Source of the DNA: Sphaerotilus mobilis
GTDB taxonomy: Bacteria > Pseudomonadota > Gammaproteobacteria > Burkholderiales > Burkholderiaceae_C
NCBI RefSeq assembly: GCF_004216565.1
Contig: NZ_SGWV01000009.1
Location: 124,001-188,000 of the forward strand
Length of the DNA stretch: 64,000 bases
Direction: 5' to 3'
The number at the start of each line of letters is the position of its first letter. Position 1 is the stretch's first letter. Below the pieces are notes generated by a model that saw nothing but the letters and a program-made list of their open reading frames with translations, did no database searches and was not told the origin of the DNA. Positions 7,238 to 64,000 of this stretch are shown here, piece after piece. Position numbers and translations under genes: made by a program.

Positions 7238-8148
7238 ACGCCACCTCGAGCGCCGCCGCGCCGTCCCTCTCGCCCTGGCGACAGTACCTCGCCCTGACCA
7301 AGCCACGGGTCGTCCAGCTGATCGTCTTCTGCGCAGCCATCGGCATGCTGTTGGCCGTCCCGGGCCTGCCCGACCTGGAACAGGCCCGGCTGGCGCTCTG
7401 GGGCACCGTCGGCATCTGGCTGGTCGCCAGCGCGGCGGCGGCCTTCAACTGCCTGATTGAGCAACACATCGACGCCCGCATGAAGCGCACCGCGTGGCGC
7501 CCAACCGCCCGCGGTGAACTGAGCCGCACGCAGGCGCTGGTGTTCTCGGCCGTGCTGGGCGGCGCGGGCATGGTGGTGCTGCACGCAGGCGTCAACCCGC
7601 TCACGGCCTGGCTGACCTTCGGCACCTTCGTGGGCTATGCGGTGATCTACACCGTCGTGCTCAAGCCGCTGACGCCGCAGAACATCGTCATCGGTGGCGC
7701 TTCGGGCGCCATGCCACCGGTGCTGGGCTGGGCTGCACTGACCGGCGACGTCGGCCCCGAATCGATGATCCTCTGCCTGATCATCTTCCTGTGGACGCCA
7801 CCGCACTTCTGGGCCCTGGCGCTCTACCGCGCCGACGACTACGCCCGCGCCGGCCTGCCGATGCTGCCGGTCACGCACGGCAACGAGTTCACCCGGCTGC
7901 AGATCCTGCTCTACACCCTGGTGCTGCTGGCCGCCACCTTGCTCCCCTTCGTGCAGGGCATGAGCGGCTGGCTCTATCTCGCCGCTGCGCTGGTGCTGGG
8001 CGCCCGCTTCATCCACTACGCGTTCAAGCTCTGGCGCCACTACAGCGAGACGCTGGCGCGGGCCACCTTCCGCTTCTCGATCTGGCACTTGTCGCTGCTG
8101 TTCGCGGCGCTGCTGGTCGACCACTACACGCTGCCTTGGCAACGGTGA
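7234..8148 (+). CDS. ctaB: Protoheme IX farnesyltransferase (heme O synthase)
   Basis: This 304-residue UbiA-family prenyltransferase converts heme B to heme O. The first polyprenyl-diphosphate/Mg site is in [15 protein letters not shown], and [18 protein letters not shown] gives the second conserved region. Multiple membrane helices fit the family. The start at 7234 overlaps the ctaA stop; an earlier in-frame start at 7174 lies inside ctaA. The sco gene follows, possibly with a GTG start at 8145 overlapping this stop. Confidence 0.96.
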
Positions 8149-8156
8149 ACCGCCCC

Positions 8157-8792
8157 ATGCCCACGCCACGGCTGGCGATGCCGATAACGCCGCGTCGACT
8201 ACTGCTGGCCCGCGCCCTGGCGCTGGCGGGACTGTCGGTCGGCCTGACGGGCTGCGACGAGCCCCCACGAGCGCCCTTCAAGGCCGTCGACATCACCGGC
8301 GCCGACTACGCCAACCGCTTCGAGATGCCCGACCTCGACGGTCGCATGCGCACGCTGGCCGACTTCAAGGGCCGGCTGCCGGTGGTCTTCTTTGGCTACA
8401 CACATTGCCCGGACGTCTGTCCGACGACGCTGGCGATGCTGGCCGAGGTCCGCCAGCTGTTGGGCGCCGATGGCGACAAGGTGGTCGCGGTGCTCGTCAC
8501 CATCGACCCCGAACGCGACACCGCCGAACTGCTGAAGCCCTACGTCGCCAGCTTCGGTGCGGACTGGGTGGCCCTGCGGGGCGACGCCGCCCAGACCCAG
8601 GCCATGGCGCGGATGTTCAAGGTCTTCTACCGCAAGGCGCCGGGCCGCGAGCCCGGCAGCTACACCATGGACCACACCGCCGCGTCCTATGTGTTCGATC
8701 CGCGCGGACGCATCCGGCTGTATGTGCGCAACGGCATGCCGGCCGCCGACCTGGCGGCCGACCTGCGTCAGCTGCTGGCCGAACGGGGCTGA
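8157..8792 (+). CDS. SCO1/SenC family copper chaperone lipoprotein
   Basis: This 211-residue protein carries an N-terminal lipoprotein signal with lipobox LTGC (Cys33). It then has a Sco thioredoxin-like domain with the copper pair C84-x3-C88 (THCPDVCPT) and the third ligand His173 in MDHTAASY. Sco proteins deliver copper to the CuA site of subunit II. The ATG at 8157 is used; a GTG at 8145, overlapping the ctaB stop as GTGA, would add four residues and is a plausible coupled start. It is the last gene of the oxidase locus. Confidence 0.94.
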   Translation: MPTPRLAMPITPRRLLLARALALAGLSVGLTGCDEPPRAPFKAVDITGADYANRFEMPDLDGRMRTLADFKGRLPVVFFGYTHCPDVCPTTLAMLAEVRQLLGADGDKVVAVLVTIDPERDTAELLKPYVASFGADWVALRGDAAQTQAMARMFKVFYRKAPGREPGSYTMDHTAASYVFDPRGRIRLYVRNGMPAADLAADLRQLLAERG

Positions 8793-37743: not shown

Positions 37744-38399
37744 CGCTCCGTGAGACCAGCCCTGACACGCCCCCGACGGCACCGGCGCGGCTTGCGCTGG
37801 TCGACGATCACGCCATCGTCCGGGCCGGCTACGCCCGCCTGATCGAGCTGGAGGACGACCTCGTGGTGAGCGCCGAGTTCGGCGACTCCGAACAGGCGCT
37901 CGCGGCACTCGCCGGCCCGCTGCGCGGTCGCATCGACCTGCTGGTGCTGGACCTGTCGATGCCCGGCCGCAGCGGCCTGGAACTGCTGCGCAGCATCGTG
38001 CGCGCCGGCCTGCCGCTGCCGGTGCTGGTGGTCTCGATGCACGACAGCGCCGCGCTGGTCACGCAGTGCCTGCAGGCCGGTGCGCGCGGTTTCGTCTCCA
38101 AGAGCGCCGATCCGCAGGCCCTGATCGACGCGCTGCGCCGGGTCCTGCGCGGCGACCTGGTGCTGCCACCGGGCCACGGCGAGCCGGCGCTGCGCCCTCC
38201 TCACCACGACCTGACCGCCCGCGAGGTCGAGGTGCTGCGCCGCTTGCTGACCGGCATGGCCTTCGAGGAGATTGCCCATCAGCTCGGCGTGAGCGAGAAG
38301 ACCGTGTCCAACCACCAGACCCAGATCCGCCAGAAGCTGGGCGTGGGCAACGCCGTCGAGCTGCTGCACTACGCACGCAGCCATGGGCTCATGCCGTGA
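37740..38399 (+). CDS. NarL/LuxR-family response regulator
   Basis: This 219-residue regulator has a receiver domain with acidic pair VDDH, phosphoacceptor Asp71 in VLDLSMPG and Lys in FVSKSADP. A LuxR-type helix-turn-helix, LTAREVEVLRRLLTGMAFEE to SEKTVSNHQTQIRQKLG, completes it. It is translationally coupled to the kinase. The downstream secreted beta-propeller gene is a candidate target by position. Similar NarL regulators control PQQ-dependent alcohol oxidation in pseudomonads, but no such dehydrogenase is in this window. Confidence 0.94.
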   Translation: MTLRETSPDTPPTAPARLALVDDHAIVRAGYARLIELEDDLVVSAEFGDSEQALAALAGPLRGRIDLLVLDLSMPGRSGLELLRSIVRAGLPLPVLVVSMHDSAALVTQCLQAGARGFVSKSADPQALIDALRRVLRGDLVLPPGHGEPALRPPHHDLTAREVEVLRRLLTGMAFEEIAHQLGVSEKTVSNHQTQIRQKLGVGNAVELLHYARSHGLMP

Positions 38400-38562
38400 G
38401 CCCCACGCGGGTGTTCCGGACCGGCGCCGCCTTGCTCCAGAACGACGCACCGTCGCCCGCAGGCATCGGGACTTTCCATCGATCAGGAAGATTTCCCTGG
38501 TGGCCCGTGAGACCGGTCGCTACGGTAGAGCCCACGTTCAACGCTCAACGACGTCCACCAAC

Positions 38563-39552
38563 ATGACCACTGCCCGCCGCGCCCCCGTCACCCTCGCCCT
38601 GCTGGCCCTGGCCGCATCGGCCACCTTCTCCGGCGCCAGCCTGGCGCAAGGCGTGGCCTATGTGTCGAGCGAGAAGGACAACACCCTGTCCGTGTTCGAC
38701 CTCGCCACCCAGGCCGTCACGGGCACCGTCGCCACCTGCAAGCGCCCGCGCCACATGCGCACGACGCCCGATGGCAAGCAGCTGGTGGTCGCCTGCGGCG
38801 ATTCCGGCGAGGCCGACGTGATCGACCTGTCCACGCGCAAGTCGGTCGGCCGCATCGACCTGGGCGAAGACCCGGAGATCTTCGACCTGTCGCCCGATGG
38901 CAAGACGCTCTACGTCAGCAATGAGGAAGACGCCGAGATCGGCGTCATCGACGTCGCCAGCGGCAAGCGCAGCAAAGCCGTCAAGGTCGGTCAGGAACCC
39001 GAGGGCGTGATCGTCAGCCCGGACGGCAAGAAGGTCTACGCCACCTCCGAGGTCGCCAGCATGGTCCACGTGATCGACACGGCCACTGGCAAGGTCACGC
39101 ACAACATCAAGGTCGGCAAGCGCCCGCGCCGCTTCGCCATGACGCCCGATGGCGCGCAACTCTGGGTCAGCAACGAACTGGGCGCCAGCGTGAGCGTGAT
39201 CTCCACGGCCGACAACAAGGTGATCGAGACGATCAAGTTCGCCGTCAAGGGCGCCCGCGCCAGCGACATCACGCCGGTCGACGTCAAGATCAGCGCCGAC
39301 GGCAAGCGCGCCTATGTCGGCCTGGGCAATGCCAACCACGTCGCCTTCGTCGACGTGGCCACCCGCAAGACGACCGACCTGGTGCTGGCCGGCAAGCGGG
39401 CCTGGGGCCTGGGTCTGAACAAGGCGCAAGACCGCCTCTACGTCGCCAACGGCTTGTCCGATGACCTGACGGTCATCGATACCGGCGCGGCCAAGGCGCT
39501 GAAGACCGTGCGTGTCGGCCGCGTGCCGCACAGCGTGGTGGTGGTCGAGTGA
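38563..39552 (+). CDS. Secreted YVTN-type beta-propeller protein
   Basis: This 329-residue protein has a signal peptide (cleavage likely after Ala28, ASLAQG) and about seven blades with repeating AYVSSEKDNTLSVFDLA-like strands. Each blade includes SPDGK or TPDGA turns. Two Cys (in TVATCKRP and LVVACGDSG) could form a disulfide in the first blades. It resembles the beta-propeller family associated with PQQ-dependent catabolism (TIGR03866). The ATG at 38563 is chosen for the signal peptide; an in-frame start at 38383 overlaps the regulator gene. Confidence 0.87.
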   Translation: MTTARRAPVTLALLALAASATFSGASLAQGVAYVSSEKDNTLSVFDLATQAVTGTVATCKRPRHMRTTPDGKQLVVACGDSGEADVIDLSTRKSVGRIDLGEDPEIFDLSPDGKTLYVSNEEDAEIGVIDVASGKRSKAVKVGQEPEGVIVSPDGKKVYATSEVASMVHVIDTATGKVTHNIKVGKRPRRFAMTPDGAQLWVSNELGASVSVISTADNKVIETIKFAVKGARASDITPVDVKISADGKRAYVGLGNANHVAFVDVATRKTTDLVLAGKRAWGLGLNKAQDRLYVANGLSDDLTVIDTGAAKALKTVRVGRVPHSVVVVE

Positions 39553-59040: not shown

Positions 59041-60717
59041 ATGAACGCTCCCCTGCCCCTCGCCCGCCAGACCGCCCTGGCCGAACGCTGGCTGGCCGCC
59101 ATCGTCGAATCGTCGGACGACGCCATCGTCAGCAAGACGCTGGACGGCATCGTCACCAGCTGGAACGGAGGCGCCGAACGCATCTTCGGCTGGCGGGCCG
59201 ACGAAATGATCGGCCGGCCGATGGTGTCCATCTTCCCGGCCGACCGGATCGACGAGGAGCCGCAGATCCTCGCGCGCATCGCCCGCGGCGAGAAGGTCGA
59301 ACACTTCGAGACCGTGCGGCGGCGCAAGGACGGCAGCCTGGTCGACATCTCCGCGACCATCTCCCCCCTGCGCGACGAGACCGGGCAGGTGATCGGTGCC
59401 TCGAAGATCGCGCGTGACATCACCGAGCGCATCCAGGCCGAACGCACGATCTGGCGGCAGGCCAACGTCGACACGCTGACCCAACTGCCCAACCGGCGCC
59501 AGTTCCACGAACGCCTGCAACAGGAACTCGTGCTGGCGCGACGCCGTCACCGGCATCTGGCGCTGCTGTTCATCGACCTCGACCGCTTCAAGGCGGTCAA
59601 CGACACCCTCGGGCACCAGGCCGGCGACGACCTGCTGCAGCAGGCCTCGCGCCGCATCCAGTCCTGCGTGCGGGCGGTCGACACCGTCGCCCGGATCGGT
59701 GGCGACGAGTTCACCGTCGTGCTGCCCGACCTCGACACGGCGTCGATCGCCAGTGAGATCGCGCAGCGCCTGAATGCCACGCTGTTCGAGCCCTTCCAGC
59801 TCGGCAACGTGCCGGTGCACATCTCCGGCAGCATCGGTGTCGCGCTGTTCCCCCAGGACGGCGAGTCGACCGAAGAGCTGCTGCAACACGCGGACCTCGC
59901 CATGTACGCCTCCAAACAGCAGGGCCGCAATCAGGCGCGCCACTACCACCATGCGCTGGAATCGGCGGCCCGCCAGCGCGTCGCGCTGATCGGCGACCTG
60001 CGCGTGGCCATCGAACAGGACACGCTCGATCTGGCCTGCCAGTCGGTCTACAGCCTGAACGACGGCGCGGTCGACCACCACGAGGTGCAACTGCGCTGGG
60101 ACCATCCCGCGCACGGCCACCTGGATGCGGACACGCTGTTCAAGGTCGCCGAGGAGGCCGGCCTGATGCTGCGGCTGGGCGACTGGATCTTCGACCGCGC
60201 CCTCGCGCTGCTGCAACGCGGCACCGGCGGTGGCCCGCTGACCGCGTCACCGCGGCTGGCGATGCGGGTCTCACCGATCCAGCTGCAGGCCGAAGCGGAC
60301 TATTTCAGCCGCTGGCTGGATCGCCTGGACACGCTGGGCCTGGCCCGCGACAGGATCGTGCTGGGCATCGCCGAGCCGACCCTGACGGCCCGCGCCGACA
60401 CCCTGCTGCCGGCGCTGACGCGGCTGCGCGCGGCCGGTCTGCAGATCGCCTTCGACCACTTCGGCGGCGCCAGCAGCATGGTCCACCTGCACCGTCTGGG
60501 TGCCCGCACGCTCAAGATCGATCGCGACATGCTGCGCGACATCGAACACGACGCCCAGGTGCTGGCCCTGTGCGAAGGGCTGGTCGAGCTGGCACACAAG
60601 CTGGGCCTGCGGGTCATCGCCGGGGGCATCGAATCGGCGGCGCAGCGCCATGTGCTGGAGGCCATCGGCTGCGACCTCGGCATGGGCCATCACGTCGTGC
60701 GCGCCACCCACGACTGA
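59041..60717 (+). CDS. PAS-GGDEF protein with degenerate EAL domain
   Basis: This 558-residue cytosolic protein has a PAS/PAC sensor (about 13-130), a diguanylate cyclase domain (about 140-300) and an EAL-like domain (about 305-555). The cyclase looks intact: RIGGDEF at 218-224 and the inhibitory I-site RAVD at 211-214. The EAL domain has lost most catalytic residues: EVQ for EAL (348), RVSP for NLSP, LGIAEP for LELTE, FDHF for DDFG (471), GGIES for AEGVE and GMGHH for QGY. It should make c-di-GMP and not break it down; the EAL part may bind the nucleotide or partners. Confidence 0.9.
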   Translation: MNAPLPLARQTALAERWLAAIVESSDDAIVSKTLDGIVTSWNGGAERIFGWRADEMIGRPMVSIFPADRIDEEPQILARIARGEKVEHFETVRRRKDGSLVDISATISPLRDETGQVIGASKIARDITERIQAERTIWRQANVDTLTQLPNRRQFHERLQQELVLARRRHRHLALLFIDLDRFKAVNDTLGHQAGDDLLQQASRRIQSCVRAVDTVARIGGDEFTVVLPDLDTASIASEIAQRLNATLFEPFQLGNVPVHISGSIGVALFPQDGESTEELLQHADLAMYASKQQGRNQARHYHHALESAARQRVALIGDLRVAIEQDTLDLACQSVYSLNDGAVDHHEVQLRWDHPAHGHLDADTLFKVAEEAGLMLRLGDWIFDRALALLQRGTGGGPLTASPRLAMRVSPIQLQAEADYFSRWLDRLDTLGLARDRIVLGIAEPTLTARADTLLPALTRLRAAGLQIAFDHFGGASSMVHLHRLGARTLKIDRDMLRDIEHDAQVLALCEGLVELAHKLGLRVIAGGIESAAQRHVLEAIGCDLGMGHHVVRATHD

Positions 60718-60745: not shown

Positions 60746-63700
60746 TCAGTTCACCTTGAACAGGCCCCACATGCCCGATCCGATCATCGGCGTCGGGCCG
60801 TCGCGGTAGTGCCAGTAACCGCGCTTGGCGCCGCCTTGCAGGCTGGCGCTCACGCCCTTGCCGGGGGCGATCAGGCTGGCGCCCGGGGCGATGAAGCGCT
60901 CGATGCCCAGGTCGGCGTAGCTGTGACCGATGACCCGGAAGCTGTGCTGGCGCGCCCGTCCGTCGGCCTGCAGGACGCGGAAGGTGACCGCCTCGCCGGC
61001 CGTCGCGCTGAACACGGGCGTCTCCACCGGCAGGCCGCGCAGCGTCGACGGCAGGCGGGCATCGTTGTCGGTCATCAGCGTGGCCGGCAACACGCAGGGG
61101 TTGACGTCGCCCGCCAGCACCAATGCCTGCGAGCAGTTGGCCGAGGGCTGGCCGTTGAAGTCGATGCGCGACCACAGCGGCTCGGTGCGGTAGTTCAGCG
61201 CCCGCTCGCCCTGGTCGTAGGAATCGTCGCCATCGGCCGATGAGGGCAGTGCCGTCGCCCCCCCGGCGCCCAGGCGCAGGTTCAGGCCGTCCTGGAAGTG
61301 CAGCACGAACTCGCGGAAACGTGTGCCGTCGGCGCGGCGGATCACCGCCTCGGTCGAGCGTTCCGCACCCGCCGTGCTGGTGCCAGCCGCGTTCAGCCAG
61401 CTGCTGCCCTGCGGCTCGACGATCAGCGCGCCGATCAGGCCCTGGCTGCCCTGCTTGACCACGTCGCTCATCGCACGCAGCGGGATGGTGCCGAAGGCCT
61501 CGGGCTTGCCGCCCTTGGCCACGCCGTTGAGCAGGTCCCACTCGATGCGGCCGGCATACCAGACCAGGTTGCGCGACTGTCCGGGCGCCACCAGCTGTTC
61601 CGGGTTCAGGCCGACGTTGGCCGAATCGCTGCTGCGCGGGTCGAAATGGACCAGTTGCGCGTGCAGGCCAACCTGGTGCGAGGGCTTGATGTCGTCGACC
61701 CGCAGCGAGGTGACGGTGGGCAGTTCCGCATCACCGGGCAGGTCCGGCACCGGCTTGTTGGCGGGCAGACGGTTGGTCAGGCGCACGGTGATGCAGTCAC
61801 CGGCGTTGGCCCGCATCACCAGCGGTTCGGGCTGGCGGGTGCCGGCACGCAGGCCGGCGACGTCGGCGGCATGCACATAGAGCAGTGCGCTCGGATCGGT
61901 GATGCCGGCCCGCCGGTTGTAGACCAGCGCGCCACCGGGCAGCAGGTCACGCGCGGCCCAGACCTCGATGTTGTGGCTGCGCGCGGGCGAACCCACCGGG
62001 CAACCGTTGAGGCCCAGCACCGAGCTGACCGTGTTCAGCAGCCCGCCCAGCAGGCCACCGCTCAAGCTGCCGACCGTGTTCGTCAGCGGCTGGATCAGCC
62101 CGCCGGCCAGCGTGCCGGTCAGGCCGTCGACCGCGTTGGCATCGGCATAGGTGCGCAAGATGCCCCAGGCGCCGTTCCACAGTGCATCGGTGCTGCCGTA
62201 GTGGAACAGGTGGTCGGTCTGCTTCGCCCCGCCGCTGACCTTGGCCAGCAAGCCCAGGTCCATCTCCATGTGTTCGGAGATGCCGAGTTCCTGCGCGGCC
62301 ACGTAGGGGCCGTTCGGGTCGGACACCTCGCGGCGCCAACGCTGGCCGTGCAGCGTGAAGACATGCTGGACCTCCTGCGCGCCATGGATCAGCTTGAGCT
62401 GGACCCGCTCGCCTTCATAGGCCCGCAACACCGGCGTGTACGGATCGCCGTGGACGCGCGAGCTGAACACATAGGCCGGGTCGGCGCGCTGATCGAGGTG
62501 CAGGCCGGAACGGCTGCCGTCGGCCGACAGGCGCAGCGGCAGCGGCTCGTTGCGGTAGTTGACGAGGTAGGGGTTGTGGTGACGCGCCGAGACCGCCTCG
62601 GGCACGGCCGGCGGGTCGACCGGTTGGCCGTCCTGCGTGTAGAGCAGCGCGAAGTCGGCGCTGGCGAGCATGAACTCGCGGAAGTCGGGATGGGTCTGCT
62701 GATCGGTGGCACCGCGCACCAGCGCCTCGGTGCCCACGCCGCCGGCCAGCGGCTGGCCGCTGCGCGTGTCGAGCCACTGGCTGCCCTTGGGCTCGACCAC
62801 CAGCGCGCTGTAGAAGCCGTGCTGCTGGATCGACGAGGCGCCGAAGTGGTCGTGGGTGAAGACCGTGCGCAAGGTGCGGTCACGGCCGTCCTTGTCGAAC
62901 AGCTCGTCGGCCCACCAGCGCTGCACCGAGGTCTGGAAGCCGATGGCCGCCGGCTCGGGCAGCACGGCATGGCCGTCGACCGGTCGGACCACGCCGTCCG
63001 GCCCCATCTGGCGCACCGCGCCGCCCGGCGCCAGCGCGGCTTCGGCCCGCTCGACCAGCGCGCCGCGGGCGAAGGTGCCGTCCTCGTAGTTCCAGCCGTT
63101 GCCGCCGCCGTCGGAGGCCATCACGTCGAACTTCACCAGGTGGATGTGCTGGCTGATCGTGTCGGTCGGCACCAGCGCCTGGAAGGCGTCGCGCTGGAGC
63201 ACCTCAGGGGTGCGGTTGGTGTGGAAGAAGTTGATGCAATCGCCGGAATGGGCGCGGAAGAAGAAGGGGTCGGCCGGACGGGTCTTGCCCTCGAACGCGG
63301 CGACGTCGCTGCTCAGCACGTTGATGCGGGCCTGCGGGTCGTGCCAGCCGGCCTTGTTGACGACCAGATCAAGCTCGATGGCCGAGACGTCGTAGCGCCG
63401 CGTCGGCGCGGTCGCCGGGCACGGGTCGGCAAACGGGGCGCCGGGTGCGGCCGGGCGGCCGTTGACCTTGAAGGTCGCCGCCGTGCCGTCGACGGTCCGG
63501 CTGGCATGGCCGCCCGGACGGCCGTGGAAGGCCATGGCGGCACGTTCCAGCGGCGTGCCTTGATGGGGCAGCAGCGTCAGGTCGACCGTCTCCAGGTGCG
63601 AGGACAGGTCGGCCGCCGCCACGCCGGCACCCAGGGTGCGGCTGCCGGCCGTGATCAGGTGGCGGCCGAGGCCGTTCGGGCCGAGCTGGCTGTCAGCGCT

Positions 63701-64000
63701 CAGGTCCAGCGGCGGCTGCGGCGGGCGGTGGCCGGCCGCGCCGGGCACGAAGAAGGGGAAGCCGGGAGCGGCCGCCGCGCCATAGGTCGGCGCGGGCGCC
63801 AGCGCGGTGCCGCGGATCGGCAGCAGCGCCGGGCTGTAGGCGCCGCCGCGGGTCTCGCCGGTCAGCGGGTCGGTGCCGGGGCCCAGTTCGCCGTCGGGCA
63901 GGCGCCGGGTGCCGTCCTCCAGCACGTCATGGACCCGCCACAGGCCCCACATGCCTTGGGCGAAATGCGGGTACATGTGGCAATGGAAGATCGCATCACC
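60746..64000 (-). CDS. Multicopper oxidase, MofA/MnxG-like putative Mn(II) oxidase (N-terminus beyond window)
   Basis: The visible 1084 residues are the C-terminal part of a very large multicopper oxidase. The first visible residues hold a complete type 1/type 3 copper motif, HCHMYPHFAQGM (6-17). Then come HIHLVKFD (285-292), HDHFGASSIQQHGFY (383-397), the degenerate HLFHYGSTDALWNGAWGILR (597-616) and, near the C-terminus, YWHYRDGPTPMIGSGMWGLF (1062-1081), which lacks the Cys ligand. Size and EHMEMDL, HYGSTDALWNGAWG segments resemble MofA of Leptothrix and bacterial MnxG. A Gly/Leu-rich stretch (626-666) links two halves. Mn(II) oxidation is inferred from the family. The gene converges on the GGDEF gene, and no mofB/mofC-like genes lie downstream. 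Confidence 0.85.
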   Translation of the reverse strand, partial: GDAIFHCHMYPHFAQGMWGLWRVHDVLEDGTRRLPDGELGPGTDPLTGETRGGAYSPALLPIRGTALAPAPTYGAAAAPGFPFFVPGAAGHRPPQPPLDLSADSQLGPNGLGRHLITAGSRTLGAGVAAADLSSHLETVDLTLLPHQGTPLERAAMAFHGRPGGHASRTVDGTAATFKVNGRPAAPGAPFADPCPATAPTRRYDVSAIELDLVVNKAGWHDPQARINVLSSDVAAFEGKTRPADPFFFRAHSGDCINFFHTNRTPEVLQRDAFQALVPTDTISQHIHLVKFDVMASDGGGNGWNYEDGTFARGALVERAEAALAPGGAVRQMGPDGVVRPVDGHAVLPEPAAIGFQTSVQRWWADELFDKDGRDRTLRTVFTHDHFGASSIQQHGFYSALVVEPKGSQWLDTRSGQPLAGGVGTEALVRGATDQQTHPDFREFMLASADFALLYTQDGQPVDPPAVPEAVSARHHNPYLVNYRNEPLPLRLSADGSRSGLHLDQRADPAYVFSSRVHGDPYTPVLRAYEGERVQLKLIHGAQEVQHVFTLHGQRWRREVSDPNGPYVAAQELGISEHMEMDLGLLAKVSGGAKQTDHLFHYGSTDALWNGAWGILRTYADANAVDGLTGTLAGGLIQPLTNTVGSLSGGLLGGLLNTVSSVLGLNGCPVGSPARSHNIEVWAARDLLPGGALVYNRRAGITDPSALLYVHAADVAGLRAGTRQPEPLVMRANAGDCITVRLTNRLPANKPVPDLPGDAELPTVTSLRVDDIKPSHQVGLHAQLVHFDPRSSDSANVGLNPEQLVAPGQSRNLVWYAGRIEWDLLNGVAKGGKPEAFGTIPLRAMSDVVKQGSQGLIGALIVEPQGSSWLNAAGTSTAGAERSTEAVIRRADGTRFREFVLHFQDGLNLRLGAGGATALPSSADGDDSYDQGERALNYRTEPLWSRIDFNGQPSANCSQALVLAGDVNPCVLPATLMTDNDARLPSTLRGLPVETPVFSATAGEAVTFRVLQADGRARQHSFRVIGHSYADLGIERFIAPGASLIAPGKGVSASLQGGAKRGYWHYRDGPTPMIGSGMWGLFKVN

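Follow-up and report, generated by a model that had tools for sequence, protein, structure and literature searches.

Manganese-oxidising multicopper oxidases (MCOs) of very large size have been described in several bacteria. MnxG of Pseudomonas putida GB-1 and the Bacillus Mnx enzyme are Mn oxidases (PMC11930936, PMC5622069). The former belongs to the family of the protein described here and has 1944 aa (PMC3600357). Its operon, as tabulated in PMC11409713 (Table 4), includes genes for a beta-propeller protein, two SCO proteins and an ABC-binding/cytochrome c protein. MnxG of Bacillus sp. PL-12 has 1227 aa and acts in complex with MnxE and MnxF (PMC5622069). In Leptothrix discophora SS-1 the giant MCO tied to Mn oxidation is MofA; PMC3618234 and PMC7734401 report that oxidation is affected when mofA is disrupted or mutated. 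The order of the four copper motifs separates these proteins. According to PMC3618234, motifs C and D precede A and B in MnxG, whereas MofA and MoxA have A and B at the N-terminus and C and D at the C-terminus. For Leptothrix cholodnii SP-6, PMC3600357 (2013) gives three six-domain proteins of 1569, 1581 and 2016 aa, and for some bacterial proteins it locates a trinuclear site between domains 2 and 3. The genes mnxG, mcoA, moxA and mofA are named for this group in PMC13386937. The six-domain Leptothrix MCO is thus a kind already known from PMC3600357 and PMC13386937, and the gene analysed here joins it.

The DNA analysed is a stretch of 64,000 nucleotides (hereafter the window; G000:C3:124001-188000, where G000 is the window's own genome). 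The initial annotation had placed a giant MCO of MofA/MnxG type at its right end, in a frame of more than 1080 residues that runs past the window and is the last gene before a convergent GGDEF gene. Its description of the frame was accurate. The open reading frame list gives 1084 aa plus a stop codon inside the window, with the 5′ end open, and 28 bases separate this stop from that of the convergent gene (Table 1). As that annotation had proposed, upstream DNA was added (locus L006, which covers the whole gene) and the full protein was predicted. The complete frame of the gene, which we call copy A, is L006:746-5578(-) and encodes 1610 aa from a GTG. The ATG at L006:5422 (65422 in window coordinates, outside the window) is the more likely start and gives 1558 aa. 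The N-terminus of this shorter product looks, by eye, like a signal peptide. Residues are numbered below as in P0001, the copy A protein.

Table 1. Positions of copy A, its copper motifs and adjacent features (window coordinates unless a contig or locus is named)
Feature	Position	Strand	Source or remark
Copy A, MnxG-like MCO gene, 3′ two thirds	60746..64000	minus	ORF list; remainder outside the window, to ~65422
Copy A stop codon, TGA	60748-60746	minus	
Motif D, HCHMYPHFAQGM, residues 532-543 of P0001	63950..63985	minus	alignment and motif scan
Motif A, HIH, residues 811-813, putative trinuclear copper cluster	63140..63148	minus	alignment and motif scan
Motif B, HDH, residues 909-911, putative trinuclear copper cluster	62846..62854	minus	alignment and motif scan
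PAS/GGDEF-type regulator, convergent neighbour of copy A	59041..60717	plus	ORF list; domains by eye
mofA-mofB-mofC-SCO-112aa operon	G000:C3:109360-118334 (L142:3360-12334)		just left of the window

At a GC content of 71%, long frames arise by chance. We generated 40 order-1 Markov sequences, each 20 kb long; their longest ORFs had a mean length of 454 aa and a maximum of 616 aa. The real antisense strand over copy A is itself open for 1379 aa. Hence, frame length alone is weak evidence for a gene. That copy A is real follows instead from homology along the protein, a GC3 of 0.92 and a dN/dS of 0.20 against its nearest orthologue. The best related loci are those of Leptothrix discophora CCM 2812, in keeping with the taxonomic hints that the initial annotation had drawn from the window. 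The convergent PAS-GGDEF protein has, by eye, EVQLRW in its C-terminal part at the place of an EAL motif; its phosphodiesterase half may be degenerate.

The assignment to a giant MCO of MnxG type stood up to profile, sequence and structure searches. Pfam recognised Cu-oxidase_2 alone in copy A. The NCBIfam MnxG model (NF041487) matched with an E value of 4.7e-217 and 723 bits; the curated cut-off is 3100, so copy A is not an MnxG equivalog. A sequence search of the PDB returned MnxG (9bxa) with an E value of 1e-133, and the next hit had 0.59. The 9bxa alignment is broken into nine segments, all within residues 89-1471, mostly co-linear and some between different repeats. It covers the C/D, A and B motif regions. 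The last 131 residues of copy A align weakly (E 9.1e-05). We used AF2 to model domains 1-4 of an 89% identical orthologue (L008, from L. discophora CCM 2812; pLDDT 81.2, pTM 0.85). With this model as query, Foldseek again ranked 9bxa first, the Mnx H340A complex from Bacillus PL-12 (E 4.3e-62; TM 0.62, normalised by query length; rmsd 5.6); ceruloplasmins came next (5e-18). By homology, copy A belongs to the prokaryotic six-domain MnxG-like MCOs; the number six comes from the MnxG alignment and PMC3600357, and the model covers domains 1-4 only.

The copper motifs of copy A run in the order C (HxxHxH, residue 477), D (532), A (811), B (909). Both the fold and this C-D-A-B order are shared with MnxG of Bacillus sp. 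PL-12. Within motif D, we take Cys533, His538 and Met543 to belong to the type 1 copper, and His532 and His534 to the type 3 copper. All 86 aligned rows, copy A included, retain the 11 His/Cys positions of the copper motifs, and the motif D Met is invariant in a separate alignment of 33 rows. To enter the 86 rows, a frame had to reach 700 aa and have a BLASTP E value of 1e-20 or less; L148 and L149 were left out as copies of L008 and L009.

A search of G000 with copy A returned two genes, copy A itself and a second one, copy B, at G000:C1:269786-274435 (76% at the DNA level). Matches occur in three of the 13 genomes of the genus (G000, G001 and G002), and two of the ten genomes without a match are less than 90% complete. 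Each of the three carries one A and one B. In addition, G001 encodes a 2067-aa MnxG. Copy B scores 761 bits with NF041487 and the 2067-aa protein 2400, so both, like copy A, lie under the cut-off. The copy A orthologue of G001 has 1581 aa and is 83% identical to copy A. It equals in length the 1581-aa protein of SP-6 (PMC3600357) and, going by length, may be that protein; the 1569- and 2016-aa proteins given there may correspond to copy B and to the larger MnxG of G001. Among the literature matches listed, no title describes the A/B pair, and we do not claim the pair as unpublished.

We built a quick tree from 25 of the 86 rows, rooted on the long-branched 2067-aa MnxG. The A and B sequences each formed a clade of three with an SH-aLRT of 100. 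The two clades and the Rubrivivax pictus copy form an open fork. The R. pictus copy, the one found among the best 80 of 537 related stretches, has B-type neighbours. Hence, copy A is probably the relocated copy.

Copy B is adjoined in G000, G001 and G002 by genes for a beta-propeller/YtkA protein, SCO1/SenC and a cytochrome c with Peripla_BP_6, a cassette like that of the GB-1 mnxG operon. Further neighbours read by eye as a two-component system. We had expected the genes downstream of copy B to be mofB and mofC; by eye they are a response regulator and a histidine kinase. Copy A differs from the GB-1 arrangement, as its locus in the window lacks the cassette. In G000, no cassette neighbours of copy A were found in the window or L006. 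What these hold is a partial beta-propeller similarity 21 kb from copy A (window 38383-39552) and, 52 kb away, a similarity to the SCO protein of the mof operon; a full-length match to the beta-propeller protein occurs in G000 at copy B only. The SCO-like protein, at window 7791-8792(+), is 41% identical to the mof-operon SCO over 102 residues. In G002, no cassette gene lies in the 9.9 kb upstream or 3.7 kb downstream of copy A, and in G001 none lies in the roughly 15 kb upstream or 16 kb downstream. These searches used BLASTP at an E value of 1e-6 with Leptothrix B-locus and mof proteins as queries, a setting that distant homologues may escape.

Across the family, counted over the best 80 of 537 confirmed related stretches plus the loci of the genus genomes, at least one of the three cassette genes is present at 64 of 83 loci. 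At 49 loci the sequence extends 4 kb or more upstream and 5 kb or more downstream; among these, the beta-propeller gene was found at 41, SCO at 31 and cytochrome c at 28. All three genes are present at 28 of these loci and none at eight, among them copy A of G001.

Several other genes were seen around these loci. ORF458, at L007:18575-19951(+), has no Pfam match and, by eye, a signal-peptide-like start; its AF2 model is poor (pLDDT 54). It recurs beside MnxG-like loci of several phyla (L009, L147, L146, L010, L021, L025, L070, L081, L085 and L086) and is divergent from copy A in G001. Some 8 kb separate copy B from the response regulator in G002 (L149:4589-12853), against about 0.2 kb in G000 and G001. 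This interval holds a 270-bp tandem repeat of 8.8 copies (L149:9909-12288), perhaps an adhesin-like gene. Secretin-like and pseudopilin-like genes, recognised by eye, lie beside copy B (L007:461-4517(+)) and beside the R. pictus copy (L011:135-2068(+)) and are perhaps a secretion route.

The MnxG model matched in seven of 299 genomes sampled from the taxonomic family, G000 included, and no match was above the cut-off. Plasmid records also gave matches to copy A by tblastn, 30 in all and each below 60% identity. The best 80 of the 537 related stretches include Acidobacteria, Myxococcota, Nitrospira, Nitrosomonas, methanotrophs and Methanoperedens archaea. We know of no Mn oxidation in Nitrosomonas.

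We consider it probable that copy A is a secreted six-cupredoxin MnxG-like MCO, one of two paralogues, and that it most likely oxidises Mn(II). The computed ground for this is homology, the copper motifs and their order, the fold of domains 1-4 of the orthologue, paralogy, neighbourhood and purifying selection; secretion, the substrate and the use of accessory proteins in trans are what we infer. The most likely function would be extracellular metal oxidation coupled to the reduction of O2. We put Mn(II) first as the substrate because GB-1 MnxG and Bacillus Mnx are Mn oxidases, and by this analogy copy A is likely to oxidise it. Electrons would enter one by one at the type 1 copper of domain 2, donated by a metal ion, in the most likely case by Mn(II) first and Mn(III) afterwards. 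They would travel on to a trinuclear copper cluster set between domains 2 and 3 and reduce O2 to water there; insoluble Mn oxide would form outside the cell. Copy A would be an orphan, related by duplication to copy B of contig C1, and would probably be loaded with copper in trans, by the cassette of copy B or by another SCO of the genome.

Some observations tell against Mn oxidation by copy A. The MnxG score is far under the curated cut-off. No cassette accompanies copy A, whereas at least one cassette gene is present at 41 of the 49 well-flanked loci. Some family members come from organisms not known to us to oxidise Mn, Nitrosomonas among them. Finally, this genome encodes other candidate Mn oxidases: copy B, MofA and a haem peroxidase that falls in the MopA superfamily. 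The last of these is of animal type (PF03098, above cut-off), lies at G000:C4:443861-445849(+) in a 1683-aa frame, and is also found in G001 and G002; it is itself a candidate Mn oxidase.

An enzyme of the same kind could have Fe(II) or another metal as its physiological substrate, as a ferroxidase or metal-detoxifying oxidase. The ceruloplasmins, the second group of structural matches, are six-domain ferroxidases, and PMC11412304 suggests a role for mofA in Fe oxidation in L. ochracea. Furthermore, G000 has a DmeF-type Co/Ni efflux gene that scores above the NCBIfam cut-off, L006:6211-7296(-), upstream of copy A, and G002 has a 79% identical gene in the same place. However, the structural match to MnxG is far stronger than that to ceruloplasmin, 788 bases separate the end of the DmeF gene from the copy A ATG, and the search around copy A of G001 found no DmeF homologue. 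We therefore regard a different metal as unlikely, and Mn(II) remains our preferred substrate for copy A.

No promoter is proposed for copy A. A sigma-70 scan upstream of the gene found no site, and neither did one sigma-54 pattern applied upstream of three A, three B and two mofA genes. A terminator-like site, L006:5786-5765(-), falls in the 788-base region before the likely start, where 0.4 would be expected by chance; an attenuator is possible.

The isolation of copy A from accessory genes, together with surroundings in G001 that differ from those in G000 and G002, could mean that copy A is a duplicate of copy B that is inactive or in decay. We compared substitution rates using simple counts of the Nei-Gojobori type. 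Among A copies, dN/dS was 0.20 (G000 versus G002), 0.31 and 0.38. The corresponding values for B were 0.20 (G000 versus G002), 0.27 and 0.30. Comparisons of A with B gave 0.51 and 0.46, and those of mofA 0.32 and 0.58. Copy A and copy B are under purifying selection. Because of these ratios we judge decay of copy A very unlikely; its frame is also open in three species and its copper motifs are complete.

The genome has a mofA of its own. A Cu-oxidase_2 search of G000 found a separate frame of 1725 aa. This frame is mofA (1687 aa from the first start codon; G000:C3:113271-118334), which lies on the window's contig, 66 kb from copy A and 5.7 kb left of the window. Next come mofB, which encodes an FKBP isomerase, mofC, which encodes a cytochrome c protein, then SCO1/SenC and a gene whose 112-aa product has no match in Pfam. 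We compared copy A with MofA of SS-1 through this gene, the likely orthologue. BLASTP found no similarity between the two products (E 3.4). McoA of GB-1 (PputGB1_2665) has very low similarity to MofA. The motifs of the mofA product are A at 330, B at 415, C at 1193 and D at 1298, the reverse of the order in copy A. A PDB search relates this product to CotA and bilirubin oxidases, with MnxG not among the matches. A similar size (1661 aa for MofA; PMC3618234), a fitting host genus and membership of the multicopper oxidases speak for copy A as Leptothrix MofA at a rearranged locus. Given the separate operon, the dissimilar sequence, the opposite motif order and the different structural relatives, we see next to no chance of this. 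Here the initial annotation erred, both in the MofA label and in reading the absence of mofB and mofC as an altered mof locus. No homologue of either gene was found in the window or L006 at an E value of 1e-5; both adjoin the real mofA. Since copy A is a different gene, their absence says nothing of a different mof locus.

The gene usually named for Mn oxidation in Leptothrix is mofA. Three genomes of the genus carry two further giant oxidases of a family with proven Mn oxidases, one beside an mnxG-type cassette and one without it. Hence, a test of mofA only is open to redundancy. Bocioaga et al. in 2014 reportedly found that disrupting candidate genes in SS-1 did not stop Mn oxidation, and a redundant set of oxidases would fit that outcome. 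We tentatively raise the possibility, one we would not call probable, that Mn oxidation in Leptothrix is shared by unrelated or duplicated giant oxidases (MofA, A, B and perhaps the haem peroxidase). Copy A may then be specialised and separately regulated, borrowing the cassette of B in trans, and single-gene disruptions may for this reason have been unclear. The A/B pair would permit a direct comparison of an enzyme with adjacent accessory genes and one without them.
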